Assembly: GCF_017104565.1 (NCBI RefSeq)
Contig: NZ_JAAGPD010000078.1
Span: 1 to 33,060 of the forward strand
Reading direction: 5' to 3'
Origin: Paraburkholderia sp. Tr-20389
GTDB lineage: Bacteria > Pseudomonadota > Gammaproteobacteria > Burkholderiales > Burkholderiaceae
Length of the DNA: 33,060 nt
Shown: positions 1,640-30,183 of the stretch, piece by piece
Numbering within the stretch: position 1 is the first letter of the stretch
Layout: each line of letters starts with the position of its first letter
Made by a program: the position numbers and the translations under genes
The notes under the pieces: generated by a model
Seen by the model: only the letters and a program-made list of their open reading frames with translations
Told to the model about the DNA's origin: nothing
Databases searched by the model: none

Positions 1640-1820
1640 CCGGAAATTGTATCAGCAACGCTGACGCGAAAAGACGAAACGATTGCGCGCTCGCACGAGG
1701 CGTGACAACGCTTTGACGGCTCATTGAATTTCGCTAAGGAAGCGATAGAGACAGCCGCGTTTTTGAACGACGCGAGCAGATAGAAACAACGTGGGGGGAA
1801 CAACAGATAGAAAAAGGAAG

Positions 1821-1920
1821 GTGACGAGCCCGACCCTCGGCACTGGCGGAAAACGGCTGTGGCTGCTTCGTTCCCGACCTGACCAGGTTGACCGCCCCTC
1901 CATGCGAGGAGGCCCGTCAC
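1821..1920 (-). ncRNA. ffs: 4.5S RNA of the signal recognition particle (small bacterial type)
   Basis: Read on the minus strand the stretch starts GTGACGGGCC and ends GGGCTCGTCAC, so the two ends pair to close a long hairpin. The conserved apical part is present: CAGGTCGGGAACGAAGCAGC, with the GGAA tetraloop and the asymmetric AGCAGCC internal loop that binds Ffh. Compared with E. coli 4.5S the pair closing the tetraloop is G-C instead of C-G, which keeps the fold. About 100 nt, close to the E. coli 114 nt. A T-rich run follows at 1811-1820 on the minus strand and probably ends transcription. Exact ends are inferred from pairing. Confidence 0.93.
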
Positions 1921-6505: not shown

Positions 6506-8263
6506 ATGAGATCTGTCGTTCGCCTGACTGCCTCCGCCACCAGCGCGCTGCCGCGCTGGATGCTGCTTACCATCTGCGTCGTGTACGCGTCGTTCGGCCT
6601 GTTCGGACGCGACCCGTGGAAAAACGAGGACGCAGCCGGCTTCGGCGTCATGTGGACGATGGCCAACGGCTCGCTTCACGACTGGCTGCTGCCGAATCTG
6701 GTCGGCAAATACATGACGTCCGACGCGCCGCTCGGCTACTGGCTTGGCGCCAGCGCGATCCGCGTGCTCGACCCGCTTGTGGACGCAAGCAATGCGTCGC
6801 GCGTATTCACGGGCCTGCTGTTCTGCGCGGCGTGCGCGTTCGTCTGGTATGCGGCGTATCTGCTCGGTCGCCGGCCGGAAGTGCAGCCGTTCAAGTATGC
6901 ATTCGGCGGCGAGCCCGAACCGCGCGACTACGGTCGCACGCTCGGTGACGGCGCGCTGCTGATCCTGCTGGCCACCTTCGGTCTCGCCGAGCGCGGCCAC
7001 GAAACCACGCCGCAGATCGCTCAGTTCGTCTGCATCGCGATGCTCGTGTACGGCCTCGTGCGGATGATCGACAAGCCCGTCCAGGGGGCACTGATCTGGG
7101 GCTGCGCGATCGGCCTCGTGACGCTGACGAGCAGTCCCGTGCTGGTAGGCGCCCTGCTGATCGGCACCTTCGCGATGATGCTGATCGTGCACGACACGCA
7201 CTGGCGCACCTTGATGCTCGCGGGTTTGCCCGTCGCGCTGGCGCTGTCGGTGGTGTGGCCGCTCGCCGCGATCGCCCTGTTCCCCGACGATGCCGTCTGG
7301 TTCCTGCATCAGTGGATGCGCGGCAGCCTGCACACGTTCCAGGGCCCGTACGGCTCGACGCTGCGCTACGCGGTCAAGAATCTGCCCCTCTTCACCTGGC
7401 CCGCATGGCCGCTCGCGATCTGGGCGTGGTTCAGTTGGGCCGGCCTGCGCCGCGCGCCGCATGTCGCGATACCGCTGTCGGTGATCGCGCCGCTGCTGAT
7501 TCTCGTGGTGCTGCAAAGCCAGGGGACGAACCGTCTCTACATGCTGCTGACGCCCGCGCTCGCCGTGATCGCCGCGTTCGCGCTGCCGACGCTCAAGCGC
7601 GGTGCGATCAACGCGATCGACTGGTTCGCGGTGCTGAGTTTCACCGTGCTCGGCACGTTCGTGTGGCTGGTGTGGCTCGCGGGCATGACGGGCTATCCGC
7701 AACAGCTTGCACGCAATCTCTCGCGTCTCGCGCCTGGCTTCACACCGCAGTTCAAGATCCTGTCGTTCGTCTGCGCGGTCGCGGTGACCGTGTGCTGGTT
7801 CGCGCTCGTGCAATGGCGTGTGGCGCGGCATCCGAAGGTGCTATGGCGCAGCGTCGTGCTGTCGAGCGCGGGCACGACCCTGATGTGGGTGCTGCTGATG
7901 ACGCTGTGGCTGCCCGTCGTCAACTACAGCCGGACGTACAAGGACGTGGCGCAGCAGATTGCCGCGCACCTGCCGTCCGACTACAACTGCATCTCGCCCG
8001 TGCGTCTCGGCGACGCGCAGATCGCAACCTTCGCCTATTTCGGCGACATGCATTTTTCGTTCGAGGACGACTGCGACGTGATCCTGCGTCAGGACACGCA
8101 AGACTTCGGCGAACCGAGCGCGATGTCGAACTTCGTCTGGAAGCTCGTCTGGGAAGGCCGCCGCGTCGCTGACCGCGACGAGCGCTTCCGCCTGTACGTG
8201 CGCATCGACCGTCCGCAGCCGCCCGTCAAGCGCCGTCCGTGGCGTCCGAAGAAAAGCGGCTGA
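6506..8263 (+). CDS. Integral-membrane glycosyltransferase of the ArnT/PMT (GT-C) type
   Basis: 585-residue polytopic inner-membrane protein with roughly ten or more hydrophobic segments. The first periplasmic loop carries an acidic KNEDAAG motif followed by conserved-looking aromatic and Asp residues (SDAPLGYWLG), the layout of GT-C enzymes that take sugar from an undecaprenyl- or dolichyl-phosphate donor (PMT_2 family: ArnT and relatives). The acceptor, whether lipid A, protein or polysaccharide, cannot be told from sequence. A soluble C-terminal domain of about 90 residues with two Cys (NCISPV, DDCDV) is probably periplasmic. No good ribosome site is seen before the ATG at 6506. Its stop is 2 nt before the MATE start, so the two are probably translationally linked. 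Confidence 0.8.
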   Translation: MRSVVRLTASATSALPRWMLLTICVVYASFGLFGRDPWKNEDAAGFGVMWTMANGSLHDWLLPNLVGKYMTSDAPLGYWLGASAIRVLDPLVDASNASRVFTGLLFCAACAFVWYAAYLLGRRPEVQPFKYAFGGEPEPRDYGRTLGDGALLILLATFGLAERGHETTPQIAQFVCIAMLVYGLVRMIDKPVQGALIWGCAIGLVTLTSSPVLVGALLIGTFAMMLIVHDTHWRTLMLAGLPVALALSVVWPLAAIALFPDDAVWFLHQWMRGSLHTFQGPYGSTLRYAVKNLPLFTWPAWPLAIWAWFSWAGLRRAPHVAIPLSVIAPLLILVVLQSQGTNRLYMLLTPALAVIAAFALPTLKRGAINAIDWFAVLSFTVLGTFVWLVWLAGMTGYPQQLARNLSRLAPGFTPQFKILSFVCAVAVTVCWFALVQWRVARHPKVLWRSVVLSSAGTTLMWVLLMTLWLPVVNYSRTYKDVAQQIAAHLPSDYNCISPVRLGDAQIATFAYFGDMHFSFEDDCDVILRQDTQDFGEPSAMSNFVWKLVWEGRRVADRDERFRLYVRIDRPQPPVKRRPWRPKKSG

Positions 8264-8265
8264 GC

Positions 8266-9627
8266 ATGTTCGCCGATGTGCGGAAAATCGCCGGGCTCGC
8301 GTGGCCCGTGCTGATCGGCCAGCTGGCGATCATTGCGTTCGGCGTGATCGATACGGCGATGGTGGGCCGCTTCTCGGCGACCGACCTTGCAGCGCTCGGT
8401 CTCGGCTCGTCGATTTATATCTCCGTGTACATCGGTCTGACGGGCATTCTGACCGCGCTGCAGCCGATTGCCGGCCAGCTCTACGGCGCCGCGCGCTACG
8501 AGGAGATCGGCGAGGAAGTGCGCCAGGCGTTGTGGCTCGCGCTGGCGCTCGCCACGCTCGGCTTTCTGATTCTCTACTTCCCTCACCCGCTGCTGCAGGT
8601 GGCACGTGCGCCCGAGGCGCTGCGAGAGCGCACCGTCTCCTATCTGCAGATTCTCGCGTTCGGCCTGCCGGCGAGTCTCGCGTTTCGCGTCTATAGCTCG
8701 CTGACGAATGCCGTCGGGCAGCCGCGGCTCGTGATGATTCTGCAGATCGGCGCATTGATGCTGAAGGTGCCGCTCAACCTGCTGCTGATTTTCGGCAAGC
8801 TCGGCATGCCGGCGCTCGGCGGTCCGGGGGCGGCGCTCGCCAGCATTCTGATCAACTGGACGCTCGCCGTCGTCGGCATGCTGGTGATGACGAAGCTCGA
8901 CGTGTTCAGGCCGTTCGCGATCTTCCGGCATTTCTGCTGGCCCGTGTGGCGGCGTCAGGCAGCCCAGTTGAAACTGGGCGTACCGATGGGGCTGTCGTAT
9001 CTGATCGAGGTGACGTCGTACACGTTCATGGCGCTTTTCATCGCGCGTTTCGGTACGACGACGCTCGCCGGTCATCAGATCGCGGGCAACATCGGCGCGG
9101 TGCTCTACATGACGCCGCTGTCGATCGGCATCGCCACGTCGACCCTCGTCGCGCAGGCGCTCGGCGCGCAGCGCTACGAAGCGGCGCGCACGCTCGCGCG
9201 GCACGGCATCGCGATGGCCGTCGCGCTCGCGTGCTGTTATGGCGTGATCGTGCTCGCGCTGCGGCCCGTCATCATTGCGGGCTACACGCCGAACGCGCAG
9301 GTCGTGCAGGCGGCGATGCCGCTCGTGCTGATTGTCGTGTTCTACCATCTGTGCGACGCGTTGCAGATCACGTCGGCGTTCGTGCTGCGCGCGTATCGCG
9401 TGGCCGTCGTGCCGACCGTGATCTATGCCGTCGCGTTGTGGGGCGTCGGGCTCGGCGGCGGCTATGCGCTCGGGTTCGATGTGGGCGGGTGGGTACCCCA
9501 GCCGTTCACTGGCGCACGCGGGTTCTGGCTCGCGAATACCGCGAGTTTGATGATTGCTGGGGTTGGGCTTGCTTTGTATTTGCGCTGGGTCAGCGCGCGG
9601 ATGAGTTCCAGGCAGCAGCGCGGATAG
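8266..9627 (+). CDS. MATE-family multidrug/metabolite efflux transporter
   Basis: 453-residue inner-membrane antiporter with twelve predicted transmembrane helices in two related halves. The N-terminus (WPVLIGQLAIIAFGVIDTAMVGRFSATDLAALGLGSS, residues about 10-46) is typical of the NorM/DinF branch; such proteins expel cationic drugs or metabolites using Na+ or H+ gradients. I chose the ATG at 8266, 2 nt after the preceding stop, over a GTG at 8239 that would overlap the glycosyltransferase; the shorter form has the family's usual length. The overlapping arrangement suggests co-expression with the glycosyltransferase. Whether it exports a drug or a glycosylation-related lipid is not shown by the sequence. 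Palindromic repeat A starts about 90 nt downstream. Confidence 0.93.
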   Translation: MFADVRKIAGLAWPVLIGQLAIIAFGVIDTAMVGRFSATDLAALGLGSSIYISVYIGLTGILTALQPIAGQLYGAARYEEIGEEVRQALWLALALATLGFLILYFPHPLLQVARAPEALRERTVSYLQILAFGLPASLAFRVYSSLTNAVGQPRLVMILQIGALMLKVPLNLLLIFGKLGMPALGGPGAALASILINWTLAVVGMLVMTKLDVFRPFAIFRHFCWPVWRRQAAQLKLGVPMGLSYLIEVTSYTFMALFIARFGTTTLAGHQIAGNIGAVLYMTPLSIGIATSTLVAQALGAQRYEAARTLARHGIAMAVALACCYGVIVLALRPVIIAGYTPNAQVVQAAMPLVLIVVFYHLCDALQITSAFVLRAYRVAVVPTVIYAVALWGVGLGGGYALGFDVGGWVPQPFTGARGFWLANTASLMIAGVGLALYLRWVSARMSSRQQRG

Positions 9628-9670
9628 CTCTCGGCGTGGTTTTTTGCTGGCATTCGCCGGTTTCTAGCGG

Positions 9671-9746
9671 TGGCATCCGCGTTGTGCTTCTGGTTTGCTG
9701 GCGCGGTTTCTTCGCTGGCATCCGCGTTGTGATTCTGGTTTGCTGG
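9671..9746. repeat. Two tandem 31-nt repeats, 45-nt period, at the left edge of element A
   Basis: 9671-9701 and 9716-9746 are identical except for one base (C versus A); both read TGGCATCCGCGTTGTG, then TTCTGGTTTGCTGG after the variable base. A third, degenerate unit starts at about 9648 (GCTGGCATTCGC). The second unit is the outer flank of element A. Confidence 0.9.
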
Positions 9747-10366
9747 TGTTGCCCCTGTGCGGGGCGGCACTTACTTTCTTTGCCGCCGCAAAGAAAGTAA
9801 GCAAAGAAAGCGGGCTAACCCCGCCAGTCCTTGTTTTTGCCTGCGGGCCCCCGACAGTTCTTACACTTCACGCGGCAACGCACTTGTTTGCGCCCGTTGC
9901 CAGCGTACTACCTGCACGCATCACCCACTTCACACTTCCGCGTCGCCGACTGCGTTACCAGACGTCTACCGCCGCCCAGGTGGCAAACGGTGTGTAGGCC
10001 GTCGCGATCGAAGTGCACCACTCCGGACTGAAAAGCGGGATCGGTGTCGTAGGAGCGCGAATGTGTCCGGTGCGACAACCTACACACAGTTTGCCACCTG
10101 GGCGGCGCAAACCGTTCGCTGCCGCTGGCTGCGCTACGGGTGACTGGAGTGGGTGATGTGCCAGTTCGAGGCGCTGGCAACGGGCGCAAAACGATGTGTT
10201 GCCGTGTGGAGTGCGGGACCCGTCGGGGGCCCGCAGGCAAGTACAAAAGCTAGCGGTGTGAGCGGCTTTCTTTTGCCTACTTTTCTTTGCCGCTGCAAAG
10301 AAAAGTAGGTGCCGCCCCGCACAGGGGCAACGCATGAAGAACCACTACGAAATCGCGGATGCCAGC
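9714..10366. repeat. Large palindromic repeat element, copy A (653 bp)
   Basis: Non-coding element built as nested inverted repeats. Outermost: GCTGGCATCCGCG (9714-9726) against its complement (10354-10366). Next: a perfect 23-bp inverted repeat starting GTTGCCCCTGTGCGGGG (9748-9770 and 10309-10331). Inside each, a hairpin: CTTACTTTCTTTGC with its complement (9770-9801) on the left, and CCTACTTTTCTTTGC with its complement (10276-10309) on the right. The arms then resemble each other inverted, with interruptions, to a 24-bp inner pair CCCAGGTGGCAAAC... (9975-9998 and 10079-10102, one mismatch) around an 80-nt centre (9999-10078). ORFs on both strands through it are mutual mirror images and not believable genes. 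It lies between two convergent genes. A second copy is at 28007-28657. Confidence 0.92.
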
Positions 10367-10567
10367 AAAAAAACACAAACCACTGCCGCAGCCAGCGAAA
10401 ACACGAAACGAAAGACCGCCGCGCGAGCGGAAAATTGAACTGCGAGGCTCCCTTTCTAAAGGCTGCTTTTGAAAGCAGCACCACACCCGCCACCCGGCAA
10501 GGATGAAGAAAGGCAGACCGTTAGTTGCATCAACAGAATTCTCCACACCTCACGCGGAGCAGTGCAC
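10367..10567. other. Non-coding gap with a short perfect palindrome
   Basis: About 200 nt between element A and the 3' end of the decarboxylase-family gene. It holds a perfect palindrome GCTGCTTTTGAAAGCAGC (10462-10479, 8-bp arms) without a T-run. No gene is seen. Confidence 0.6.
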
Positions 10568-10966
10568 TCAAACCGCGGCGCCAGCCGCCCCCTCCTCGAA
10601 TACCTCCCGCGCCGCGAACAACGCATTCAACGCCGCCGGAAAGCCTGCATAAACAGCCATCTGCATAAACACCTCGACGATCTCCTCCCGCGTGCAGCCG
10701 ACATTCAGCGCCGCTTCGATATGCACCTTGAGTTGCGGCTGCGCATTGCCGAGCGCGGCCAACGCAGCGATCGTCGCGATCTCGCGAGCGCGCAAATCCA
10801 GCTGCGGGCGGCTATACACATCGCCGAACGGAAACTCGATCAGCATCCGCGCGAAATCGGGCGCAATCGGTGCAAGCGCCGCAATCACCTTCTCCCCTGC
10901 CGTTCCGTCGATTTCCTTCAACCTGGCCCAGCCGCGTGCATAGCGATCGTCGTGTGCATGATTCAT
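10568..10966 (-). CDS. Carboxymuconolactone decarboxylase (CMD) family protein
   Basis: 132-residue all-helical protein. The CMD core is visible at about 50-115: LDLRAREIATIAALAALGNAQPQ, then HIEAALNVGCTREEIVEVFMQMAVYAGFPAALNAL. It has a single Cys in the GCTREEI segment and no CxxC, so it belongs with the PcaC-like branch and not with the AhpD peroxidase-reducing branch; the true substrate is unknown, since many such proteins are not decarboxylases. No other aromatic-degradation genes are nearby. Its ATG (10966) overlaps the stop of the MerR gene by 4 nt (ATGA), so the two are translationally coupled and it is the likely output of that regulator. Confidence 0.9.
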   Translation of the reverse strand: MNHAHDDRYARGWARLKEIDGTAGEKVIAALAPIAPDFARMLIEFPFGDVYSRPQLDLRAREIATIAALAALGNAQPQLKVHIEAALNVGCTREEIVEVFMQMAVYAGFPAALNALFAAREVFEEGAAGAAV

Positions 10967-28006: not shown

Positions 28007-28657
28007 GTTGGCATCCGCGTTATGCCTTCGTTGTTCATGCGTTGCCCCTGTGCGGGGCGGCACTTACTTTCTTTGCCGCCGCAAAGAAAGTAAGCAAAGA
28101 AAGCGGGCTCACACCGCCAGTCCTTGTTTTTGCCTGCGGGCCCCCGACGGTTCTTACGCTTCACGCGGCAACGCACTTGTTTGCGCCCATTGCCAGCGTG
28201 CTACCTGCACGCATCACCCGCTTCACACTCCCCGCGTCACGAACAGCGTTACCAGCCGTCCACGGCCGCCCAGGTGGCAAACTGTGTGTAGGCGGTCGCG
28301 AGGTCAATGCACCACTCCGGACTGAAAAGCAGGATCGGTGTCGTAGGAGCGCGAACGCATATGGTGCGACAACCTACACACAGTTTGCCACCTGGGCGGC
28401 GCAAACCGTTCGCTGCCGCTGGCTGCGCTGCGGGTGACTGGAGCGGGTGATGCGCCTGTTCAAGGCGCTGGCAACGGGTGCAAACAAGTGCGTTGCCGTG
28501 TGAAGTGCGGGACCCGTTGAGGGCCCGCAGGCAAGAACAAGGATTGGCGGTGTGAGCCCGCTTTCTTTGCTTACTTTCTTTGCGGCGGCAAAGAAAGTAA
28601 GTGCCGCCCCGCACAGGGGCAACACTAGCAAACCAGAGACATCAAACGAATGCCAGC
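28007..28657. repeat. Large palindromic repeat element, copy B (651 bp)
   Basis: Second copy of the element at 9714-10366. Outer motif GTTGGCATCCGCG (28007-28019) against CGAATGCCAGC (28647-28657); identical 23-bp inverted repeats at 28041-28063 and 28601-28623; hairpins at 28063-28094 (loop CGCC) and 28570-28601 (loop GGCG); inner perfect 24-bp pair at 28269-28292 and 28373-28396 around an 80-nt centre (28293-28372) closely like that of copy A. The centre and arms have the same orientation in the window as copy A, but the outer flanks are exchanged: the flank ending TTCATGC is left here and right in A. The element lies between thrC and moeA, both on the minus strand. It has no credible coding content. 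Confidence 0.92.
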
Positions 28658-28734: not shown

Positions 28735-30183
28735 TCAACGAGTGTGCGCAGCAACGAACCCCTTCACGCACTCAGCATCATTCGCCAGAACTTCAAACCG
28801 CTGCGGCAGATCTTCGATTCCACTGAACGCCGCCGGACGCTCCGGCTCGCGCTCCAGCGCCTCGCGAATCGTCTCGCCGAACTTGATCGGCTGCGCAGTC
28901 TCCAGCACCACCATCGGAACGCCCGCCTGCAAATGCTCACGCGCGACCTTCACGCCATCGGCCGTATGCGTATCGATCATCGTGTCGTAACGCTGGAACA
29001 CGTCGCGGATCGTATCGACGCGGTCGTCGTGGCTGCTACGCCCCGACACGAAGCCGAACTCCTTCACGCGCGCAAAATCCCCGCTAGCCTGCAAATCGAA
29101 GCCGCCCTTCTCTTCGACATCGCGGAACAGTTGCAGCACGCGCTTCGGATCGCGGCCGAGCAGATCGAACACGAAGCGCTCGAAATTCGACGCCTTCGAA
29201 ATGTCCATGCTCGGGCTGCTGGTGTGATACGTCTCCGACGACTTGCGCACACGGTAAATGCCCGTGCGGAAAAACTCGTCCAGCACGTCGTTCTCGTTGG
29301 TCGCAACCACGAGCTTCTCGATCGGCAAACCCATCATGCGCGCTATGTGACCCGCACACACATTGCCGAAGTTGCCCGACGGCACAGTGAACGACACACG
29401 CTCGTCGTTGCTCTTCGTGGCCGCGAAATAGCCCTTGAAGTAATACACGACCTGCGCGACGACGCGCGCCCAGTTGATCGAGTTGACGGTGCCGATCTTC
29501 TGCTGCGCCTTGAACGCGTGATCGTTCGACACGGCCTTGACGATGTCCTGGCAATCGTCGAACACGCCTTCGACCGCGATGTTGAAAATGTTCGGGTCCT
29601 GCAGGCTGTACATCTGCGCCGTCTGGAACGCGCTCATCTTCTTGTGCGGCGACAGCATGAACACGCGAATGCCCTTCTTGCCGCGCATCGCGTATTCGGC
29701 CGCGCTGCCCGTATCGCCCGAAGTCGCGCCGAGAATGTTCAGCGTTTCGCCGTGCTTCGCGAGCGTGTACTCGAACAGGTTGCCGAGCAACTGCATCGCC
29801 ATGTCCTTGAACGCGAGCGTCGGACCATTCGACAGTTCGAGCAGCGACAGCGGCGCGCCGTTTTCGACACCGAGCGTCTTGAGCGGCGTGATCTGCGCGG
29901 CGTTTTCCTCCTCGCGCACGTTGCAGTACACCTGCGCCGTGTACGTGCGGCGCGTCAGCTCGCGCAGGTCGTCGGCGGGAATGTCGTCGCTGAACTTGCG
30001 CAGGATCTCGAACGCGAGATCCGCATACGGCAGCGGGCGCCAGCGCGCGAGTTCATCCGCCGACACCTGCGGATATTCGTTCGGCAGATACAGACCGCCA
30101 TCCTTCGCGAGACCGCCGAGCAGGATGTCGGAGAACGTATGGCGCTCGCCGATGCCGGCGCCGCGCGTGGAAATGTAATTCAT
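28735..30183 (-). CDS. thrC: Threonine synthase
   Basis: 482-residue PLP enzyme converting O-phosphohomoserine to threonine. Start MNYISTRGAGIGERHTFSDILLGGLAKDGGLYLP; PLP-lysine motif GPTLAFKDMAMQLLG (about 105-119); glycine-rich phosphate loop ILGATSGDTGSAAEYA (about 150-165); FTVPSGNFGNVCAG further on. The length fits the longer class of threonine synthase found in many proteobacteria and fungi, as opposed to the short plant-like class. It follows hom by 30 nt, so the two are co-transcribed. Element B begins 78 nt after its stop. Confidence 0.97.
   Translation of the reverse strand: MNYISTRGAGIGERHTFSDILLGGLAKDGGLYLPNEYPQVSADELARWRPLPYADLAFEILRKFSDDIPADDLRELTRRTYTAQVYCNVREEENAAQITPLKTLGVENGAPLSLLELSNGPTLAFKDMAMQLLGNLFEYTLAKHGETLNILGATSGDTGSAAEYAMRGKKGIRVFMLSPHKKMSAFQTAQMYSLQDPNIFNIAVEGVFDDCQDIVKAVSNDHAFKAQQKIGTVNSINWARVVAQVVYYFKGYFAATKSNDERVSFTVPSGNFGNVCAGHIARMMGLPIEKLVVATNENDVLDEFFRTGIYRVRKSSETYHTSSPSMDISKASNFERFVFDLLGRDPKRVLQLFRDVEEKGGFDLQASGDFARVKEFGFVSGRSSHDDRVDTIRDVFQRYDTMIDTHTADGVKVAREHLQAGVPMVVLETAQPIKFGETIREALEREPERPAAFSGIEDLPQRFEVLANDAECVKGFVAAHTR

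Follow-up and report, generated by a model that had tools for sequence, protein, structure and literature searches.

The element at positions 9714 to 10366 of the window (the whole stretch of 33,060 nucleotides that was analysed) belongs to a family of palindromes in Paraburkholderia and Caballeronia, the members of which are best read as giant REPIN/BIME-like repeats that probably recombine as one via their conserved ends. The surprise is not the palindrome as such; it is that more than a hundred non-coding copies act as one recombining, flipping family. The element is best read as new as a whole and as following the plan of already known REPIN/BIME-like repeats.

Structure of the two copies in the window

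The two nested-palindrome copies described in an earlier note, copy A at 9714-10366 and copy B at 28007-28657, were both confirmed by the sequence and an inverted-repeat scan. Copy A is bounded by an outer 13-bp pair, GCTGGCATCCGCG, exact on both sides. In copy B the left module carries 1 mismatch and the right one is degenerate, so the described outer ends apply in full to copy A and only in part to copy B. The same module is also found by itself, forming a small hairpin, and repeated in tandem arrays (L130 1354-1460; L054 2099-2340; window 9646-9726). Both copies contain, as had been noted, an identical 23-bp inverted pair (9748-9770/10309-10331 in A, 28041-28063/28601-28623 in B) and on each side a small hairpin, which is perfect over 14-15 bp. 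These features form part of conserved ends of 82 bp. The left end of copy A (9748-9829, plus strand) consists of the 23-bp repeat, a hairpin at 9770-9801 and an A-rich tail, and the right end (10250-10331, minus strand) of a hairpin at 10276-10309 and the 23-bp repeat; the ends of copy B are located at 28041-28122 (plus strand) and 28542-28623 (minus strand).

Between the inverted ends lies a core of about 420 bp. In copy A it is an imperfect palindrome (9830-10249), exchanged and inverted among copies, with inner conserved arms at 9971-9998 (plus strand) and 10079-10106 (minus strand). The 80-nt centre that had been described was found inside this inner pair of copy A, and measures 66 nt between the longer arms given by the scan. 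In copy B, the inner pair and centre occupy 28265-28400 (pair 28265-28299/28366-28400, 94% complementary). According to the scan, arm complementarity is 74-76% in copy A and 86% in copy B. The lengths of 584 and 583 bp given previously are correct provided that the 23-bp repeats are counted in. No credible gene is present inside, as the note had stated: full-length copies differ in length, and a multiple of three is not kept.

Size and distribution of the family

The description of an element present twice in the window was accurate and an understatement. In the 9.0-Mb genome, 129 forward and 125 reverse sites of the 23-bp repeat were found with up to 2 mismatches, compared with 0 and 0 for a reversed-pattern control. 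Among the first 100 sites, 92 form 46 inverted pairs, of which 44 span 577-585 bp, one 508 bp, and one 1,765 bp with an insertion sequence inside; the other 8 are unpaired at the 2-mismatch stringency, three of them at contig ends. Scoring of 40 among the 156 candidates showed each of them to be full length, with 88-100% identity. Given this copy number and dispersal, a local duplication as the origin of the two copies is out, and the sequence does not occur only here.

The strict end pattern was detected in 21 of 40 genomes, all of one genus among the 17 genera represented, with forward counts from 2 to 185. Copy number ranges from none to about 190 per congener genome, and the pattern is missing from the congeners G009, G010 and G011. 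A looser DNA search matched 22 of the 40 genomes, the match in G027, of another family, being a 57-bp hairpin only. The similar hairpin in a genome of another family (CTTACTTTCTTT...AAAGAAAGTAAGTGCCGC, L051 1501-1557) suggests that the end hairpin may predate the element. Among the matches listed from the genome collection, those with names come from Paraburkholderia, Caballeronia and records given as Burkholderia sp. Additionally, 21 plasmid records match, 9 from Paraburkholderia, 7 from Burkholderia (short end matches) and 5 from Caballeronia. G001 agrees in its coordinates with P. largidicola PGU16. A phage origin was rejected, with no match in the phage collection and 2 matching stretches in viral contigs. 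Among the literature matches listed, from a coverage that lacks most subscription journals, the whole element is undescribed, and two exact strings of its end had no match in literature text.

Conserved ends and variable cores

Many congeners with non-matching cores share the terminal 82 bp or so at 98-100% identity. The 23-bp repeat is followed immediately by a perfect stem of at least 10 bp in 463 of the 552 ends, and eight different stem sequences occur. Between species the ends differ by 2-6%, in part as a result of there being two end alleles. Across 61 elements from the loci on hand, unit lengths range from 433 to 768 bp and core lengths from 269 to 604 bp. The 61 cores fall into two groups of 39 and 22 that are unlinked at the blastn threshold used. 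Even so, in 60 of the 61 cores palindromy exceeds that of every one of six mononucleotide shuffles (mean 0.68 vs 0.56); unrelated cores elsewhere are likewise palindromic. In 66 flank stretches, T-rich modules make up a mosaic between the stop codon and the element, with similar sequence on the two sides. It can be seen that the element separates features that are kept (ends, hairpin, palindromy) from features that are scrambled (core sequence, orientation).

Concerted evolution and copying between sites

Between species, elements at orthologous sites are no more alike than elements at non-orthologous ones. Identities were 0.755-0.761 for 3 orthologous pairs of G000 and G001 vs 0.754 for non-orthologous elements, 0.824-0.875 for 8 pairs of G000 and G020 vs 0.844, and 0.599 and 0.653 for G000 and G005 vs 0.633. 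Within-genome means are 0.85-0.90, except in G005, where the one pair stands at 0.69. When 130 cores were placed in a tree, 5 species changes were required vs at least 48 in shuffles; orthologs were sisters in 6 of the 16 same-species pairs and in none of the 14 interspecies pairs. Within species, similarity is on average still higher for orthologs than for paralogs (0.885-0.990 vs a mean of 0.880 for non-orthologs), indicating that exchange is incomplete.

The comparison of closely related strains reveals the copied tracts themselves. In 16 pairs from P. caribensis W02 and W03, the cores differ at 535 of 6793 positions (7.9%) and the ends at 9 of 2624 (0.34%), and flank identity is 97.3-99.4%, mostly with about 1% divergence. 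The case for constraint on the ends draws on this comparison together with the conservation across species, and such constraint appears probable. Of the 535 core differences, 474 are alleles that at least two other sites also carry. The same holds for 1626 of 1994 differences when 35 pairs from three strains are taken together, compared with 2572 of 9513 in a random-substitution control. Hypermutation of the core is unlikely, since most strain differences are alleles that already exist at other sites. Clustering of the differences is significant (p below 0.05) in 13 of the 16 pairs. One pair contains 149 bp identical to a paralog of the same record and 82.6% identical to the ortholog, and several others changed mainly in one half of the core.

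Similar observations were made in three P. largidicola-type strains, with differences of 4.3-7.8% in cores, 0.61-0.66% in flanks and 0.38-0.61% in ends, the ends thus changing hardly more slowly than the flanks in this set. Of its 41 rows, 15 show at most 2 core differences, 10 show 40-105, and 16 lie between. One replaced tract of 96 bp with 40 differing sites has an exact match in a copy about 6 kb away and 58% identity to the ortholog. For most of the seven replaced-core pairs tested, no convincing donor was seen among the sample of copies compared.

Inversion, arm-to-arm copying and the proposed mechanism

Whole cores are also inverted. Relative to its own flanks, the core scores better inverted in 21 of 56 ortholog rows, which are not independent and include several weak cross-species calls. 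Clear core inversions were found in 4 of the 8 G000-G020 pairs and at one site of the P. largidicola-type set, and in one same-species pair the core differs by 40 substitutions when flipped vs 124 when compared directly. Within a single element, copy L012 contains a 68-bp exact match between its own arms, the median among 24 copies being 18. Arm-to-arm matching and inversion together imply that palindromy could be kept up by recombination itself.

According to the explanation that we favour, the 82-bp inverted ends and the inner pair would give homologous recombination, with machinery of the RecA type as the likely agent, a match between any two copies in either orientation. One site would thereby pass core tracts to another, or now and then one arm to its partner, and whole cores would be flipped; the copied tracts, the inversions and one arm-to-arm tract are themselves observed. 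Exchange would homogenise the cores of each genome and leave those of different species to diverge. Copying between arms would help the core to stay palindromic, and copying of this kind, not structural selection, presumably keeps the palindrome. The ends would be kept by selection, as a putative binding site, as a hairpin, or for the ability to recombine or move. As for the way in which the copies first spread, we infer it rather than observe it. The family makes recombination between dispersed repeats naturally countable in a bacterial genome, since sister strains already differ in the rewritten sites, and it offers a test of whether recombination alone can maintain palindromy.

Placement at gene 3' ends

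The gene calls for this analysis were obtained with a home-made codon-model gene caller. In this genome, 35 copies lie between convergent genes, 30 between tandem genes and 2 between divergent genes (n=67). The corresponding counts are 8, 6 and 0 in G020 (n=14), 8, 7 and 2 in P. largidicola F2 (n=19, 2 unresolved), and 10, 5 and 3 in P. caribensis W02 (n=22, 4 unresolved). By comparison, the remaining adjacent gene pairs in the G000 stretches are convergent in 5 of 63 cases. Median distance to the nearest gene 3' end is 91-110 nt across the four sets, and the single annotated place that was examined shows the same 3'-end placement. In the window, a MATE-family transporter gene (8239-9627, plus strand) has its 3' end toward copy A, a carboxymuconolactone decarboxylase-family gene (10568-10966, minus strand) is convergent on it, and copy B begins 112 nt beyond the 3' end of the threonine synthase gene thrC (28735-30183, minus strand). 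This pattern could be explained by selective tolerance alone; tolerance or a role at transcript ends would each fit the placement.

Between the MATE-type and decarboxylase-family genes, CAGACCGTTAGTTGC (window 10514-10528; L101-L104) is conserved in five species although the remainder of the intergenic stretch is not; it was found in 6 of 445 loci, all at the same place.

RNA structure and the Rfam family RF02421

The placement is one of several features that agree with a structured RNA, a possible but doubtful explanation in which flanking or dedicated transcripts would enter the element, and the rod or the end hairpins would protect or terminate them or act as an sRNA. As single RNA strands both copies fold to an extreme degree, at -437.8 kcal/mol (z -26.0) for copy A and -499.0 kcal/mol (z -36.6) for copy B, with 0 of 20 shuffles as good in either case. 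The end hairpin, which is kept in most ends as described above, points in the same direction; however, a local hairpin could equally act in single-stranded DNA. Against this explanation stand the wholesale replacement of cores between strains and the mismatches between arms, where G-U to A-C counts were 1026 to 838 in G000, 318 to 370 in W02, 278 to 301 in W03 and 177 to 192 in G020. With no consistent G-U over A-C excess, no one transcribed strand is favoured, and a directional RNA pairing constraint was rejected.

Covariation gave a mixed result. Two measures were not significant, namely pairs with changes on both sides, 13 vs 10.9 in shuffles (a value reached in 82 of 500), and further pair types, 61 vs 60.0 (reached in 179 of 500). 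The cells with both-side change (63 vs 33.8), the percentage paired (97.8 vs 97.0) and the score (0.091 vs 0.077) were above all 500 shuffles, in a structure drawn from the same alignment and with a signal that arm-to-arm copying would also yield.

No RNA family was over threshold at the element within the window. A Bacterial small SRP RNA was found elsewhere in it (1820-1918, minus strand, 76.8 bits) and is ordinary. In a permissive Rfam search, RF02421 (Bp1_684) matched both ends of copy A facing outward, at 10299-10385 on the plus strand with 33.9 bits and at 9692-9780 on the minus strand with 24.9 bits, both below the gathering score of 44. The earlier view that no named family has this layout is to be revised for the ends, which overlap RF02421. 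In 15 further loci, 7 matches were found in 5 loci, two of them over the gathering score, at ends from two other species (48.7 and 48.6 bits). Among 31 genomes, 16 match, all of the element's genus, and 11 of the 31 are over the score; controls gave 0 of 14. RF02421 is multicopy in the genus, often as outward-facing pairs, and this paired occurrence implies that RF02421 is the edge of a repeat.

In the accessible part of the founding paper, Bp1_Cand684_SIPHT appears among the B. pseudomallei candidates, another species, on an RT-PCR gel, with pdhB and lpdA as flanking genes, and a possible trans-acting role is suggested (PMC3521395). The 113-nt model covers the outward face of each element end; unlike the single sRNA gene described in that part of the paper (PMC3521395), the match here is a piece of a much larger element. 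If a family entered in Rfam as an 'sRNA' is in fact a repeat edge, as these findings suggest, the annotation of sRNAs in Burkholderia-type genomes is affected.

Age and movement of the sites

Bacterial MITEs are short, non-coding, dispersed elements with terminal inverted repeats. The element resembles them in being non-coding and dispersed with terminal inverted repeats, and differs in that no parent transposon was found, the whole body is palindromic, and concerted evolution occurs in place. A non-autonomous element of this type, with whole units freshly inserted or replaced by a transposase that reads the 82-bp ends in trans, is an improbable explanation. In its favour are the inverted ends, the more than a hundred dispersed copies, the conservation of the ends across the genus, and the orthologous place of copy A, which is empty in G001, G005, G020 and G021. 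On the other hand, G001 and G020 both have an element at the place orthologous to that of copy B, in G020 with an insertion sequence inside; at this place G021 has nothing more than small outer hairpins (L130), and G017 one unpaired 23-bp-type site (L136). In the sampled set, matching on both flanks gave 40 ortholog pairs, and the two P. caribensis strains have 19 matched sites in common out of 22 and 21 elements. The shared sites and the empty places of copy A indicate that many sites are old and that new ones arise; the copies are best read as now mostly static in position. The suggestion of a mobile element made in the earlier note thus holds insofar as copies are dispersed and can arise at new sites, and is weakened by the many sites common to strains or species and by the lack of an autonomous partner or intact RAYT among what was found. 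Moreover, strain differences are often partial core tracts and not whole units, and no target-site duplication was resolvable at copy A, where the flanks do not permit a base-by-base alignment with the empty places.

The only transposases seen between paired ends belong to insertion sequences that landed inside. No autonomous parent with the same ends was present among the pairs of the first 100 sites or the copies fetched, and the enlarged copies contain insertion sequences. Such insertions were observed in several strains at differing positions (L060 2013-3190; L129 from about 3625; L210, L211, L213, L226, L228, L238). The L060 insertion is of the IS5 family, with a CTTA repeat on both sides, and the first replicon of G020 contains at least 8 end pairs 1.7-1.9 kb apart.

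A more far-reaching idea, to which we attach little weight, is that the 82-bp ends would be the recombination signal of a putative factor, giving programmed cassette-shuffling and inversion at more than a hundred intergenic sites per genome, with the constantly re-made but always palindromic sequences at gene ends marking the boundaries of transcripts or of chromosome domains.

A role in chromosome architecture, for example as a putative binding site for a nucleoid or segregation protein, is very unlikely. The strongly conserved ends and the average of one copy per about 70 kb in this genome are consistent with it, but it would be strange for an essential site to vary among congeners from none to about 190 copies.

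Comparison with REPINs and the recombination machinery

Neisserial intergenic mosaic elements with dRS3 have conserved short inverted repeats around variable intergenic modules, a similar plan, and differ in sequence and size. The closest likeness is to REPIN, REP and BIME repeats. In the accessible parts of the sources, these are intergenic and, like the element, lie mostly between convergent and co-directional genes, with many copies per genome, inverted conserved ends and a less conserved hairpin-forming middle with compensatory changes (PMC3116915, PMC3733652); REPs are known insertion-sequence targets (PMC1525189, in part). REPINs of SBW25, as far as that source extends, have 16-mer ends overlapping REPs and a unit of about 71-110 bp (PMC3116915). 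In contrast, the element is about 584-650 bp long, larger than REP/BIME as had been claimed, with 82-bp ends and extra outer shells; it is without an intact RAYT, and its middle is exchanged and inverted between copies. Inverted conserved ends around a less conserved spacer able to form a hairpin are present, and neither the short ends and unit length nor a RAYT with an intact motif were found. Therefore, the element is REPIN-like in plan, and REPIN membership is not claimed, on account of its end type and RAYT.

A classical REPIN population moved by a RAYT is accordingly a highly improbable explanation, although inverted conserved ends around a variable hairpin-forming middle are the REPIN plan (PMC3116915, in part) and there is one RAYT-like gene per genome in the genus. 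The sole Y1-family gene found in this genome (L059 1459-2163) encodes a 235-aa RAYT-like protein that scored 52.1 bits against the RAYT-model cut-off of 80. MPGAVQ stands at what we take to be the position of the HUH motif. No element ends are beside the gene, no solved-structure match to the protein was found, and of the 24 genomes of the genus searched, all of which have a Y1-family gene, three (G009-G011) are without the element. Going by its sequence, the gene is possibly a domesticated former transposase.

SbcCD cleavage as the driver of conversion, an idea taken from the available part of PMC3315005, is unsupported, as SbcD is mostly absent over cut-off (none in this genome, 3 of 25 genomes).

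An assembly artefact, in which swapped or blended repeat copies mimic gene conversion, is extremely unlikely: the window's genome is split into 129 contigs, and the element lies at the end of some of them, but the effect is seen in two independent sets of records whose titles call them complete, and at several sites the third P. largidicola-type strain agrees exactly or nearly so with one of the two strains that differ.
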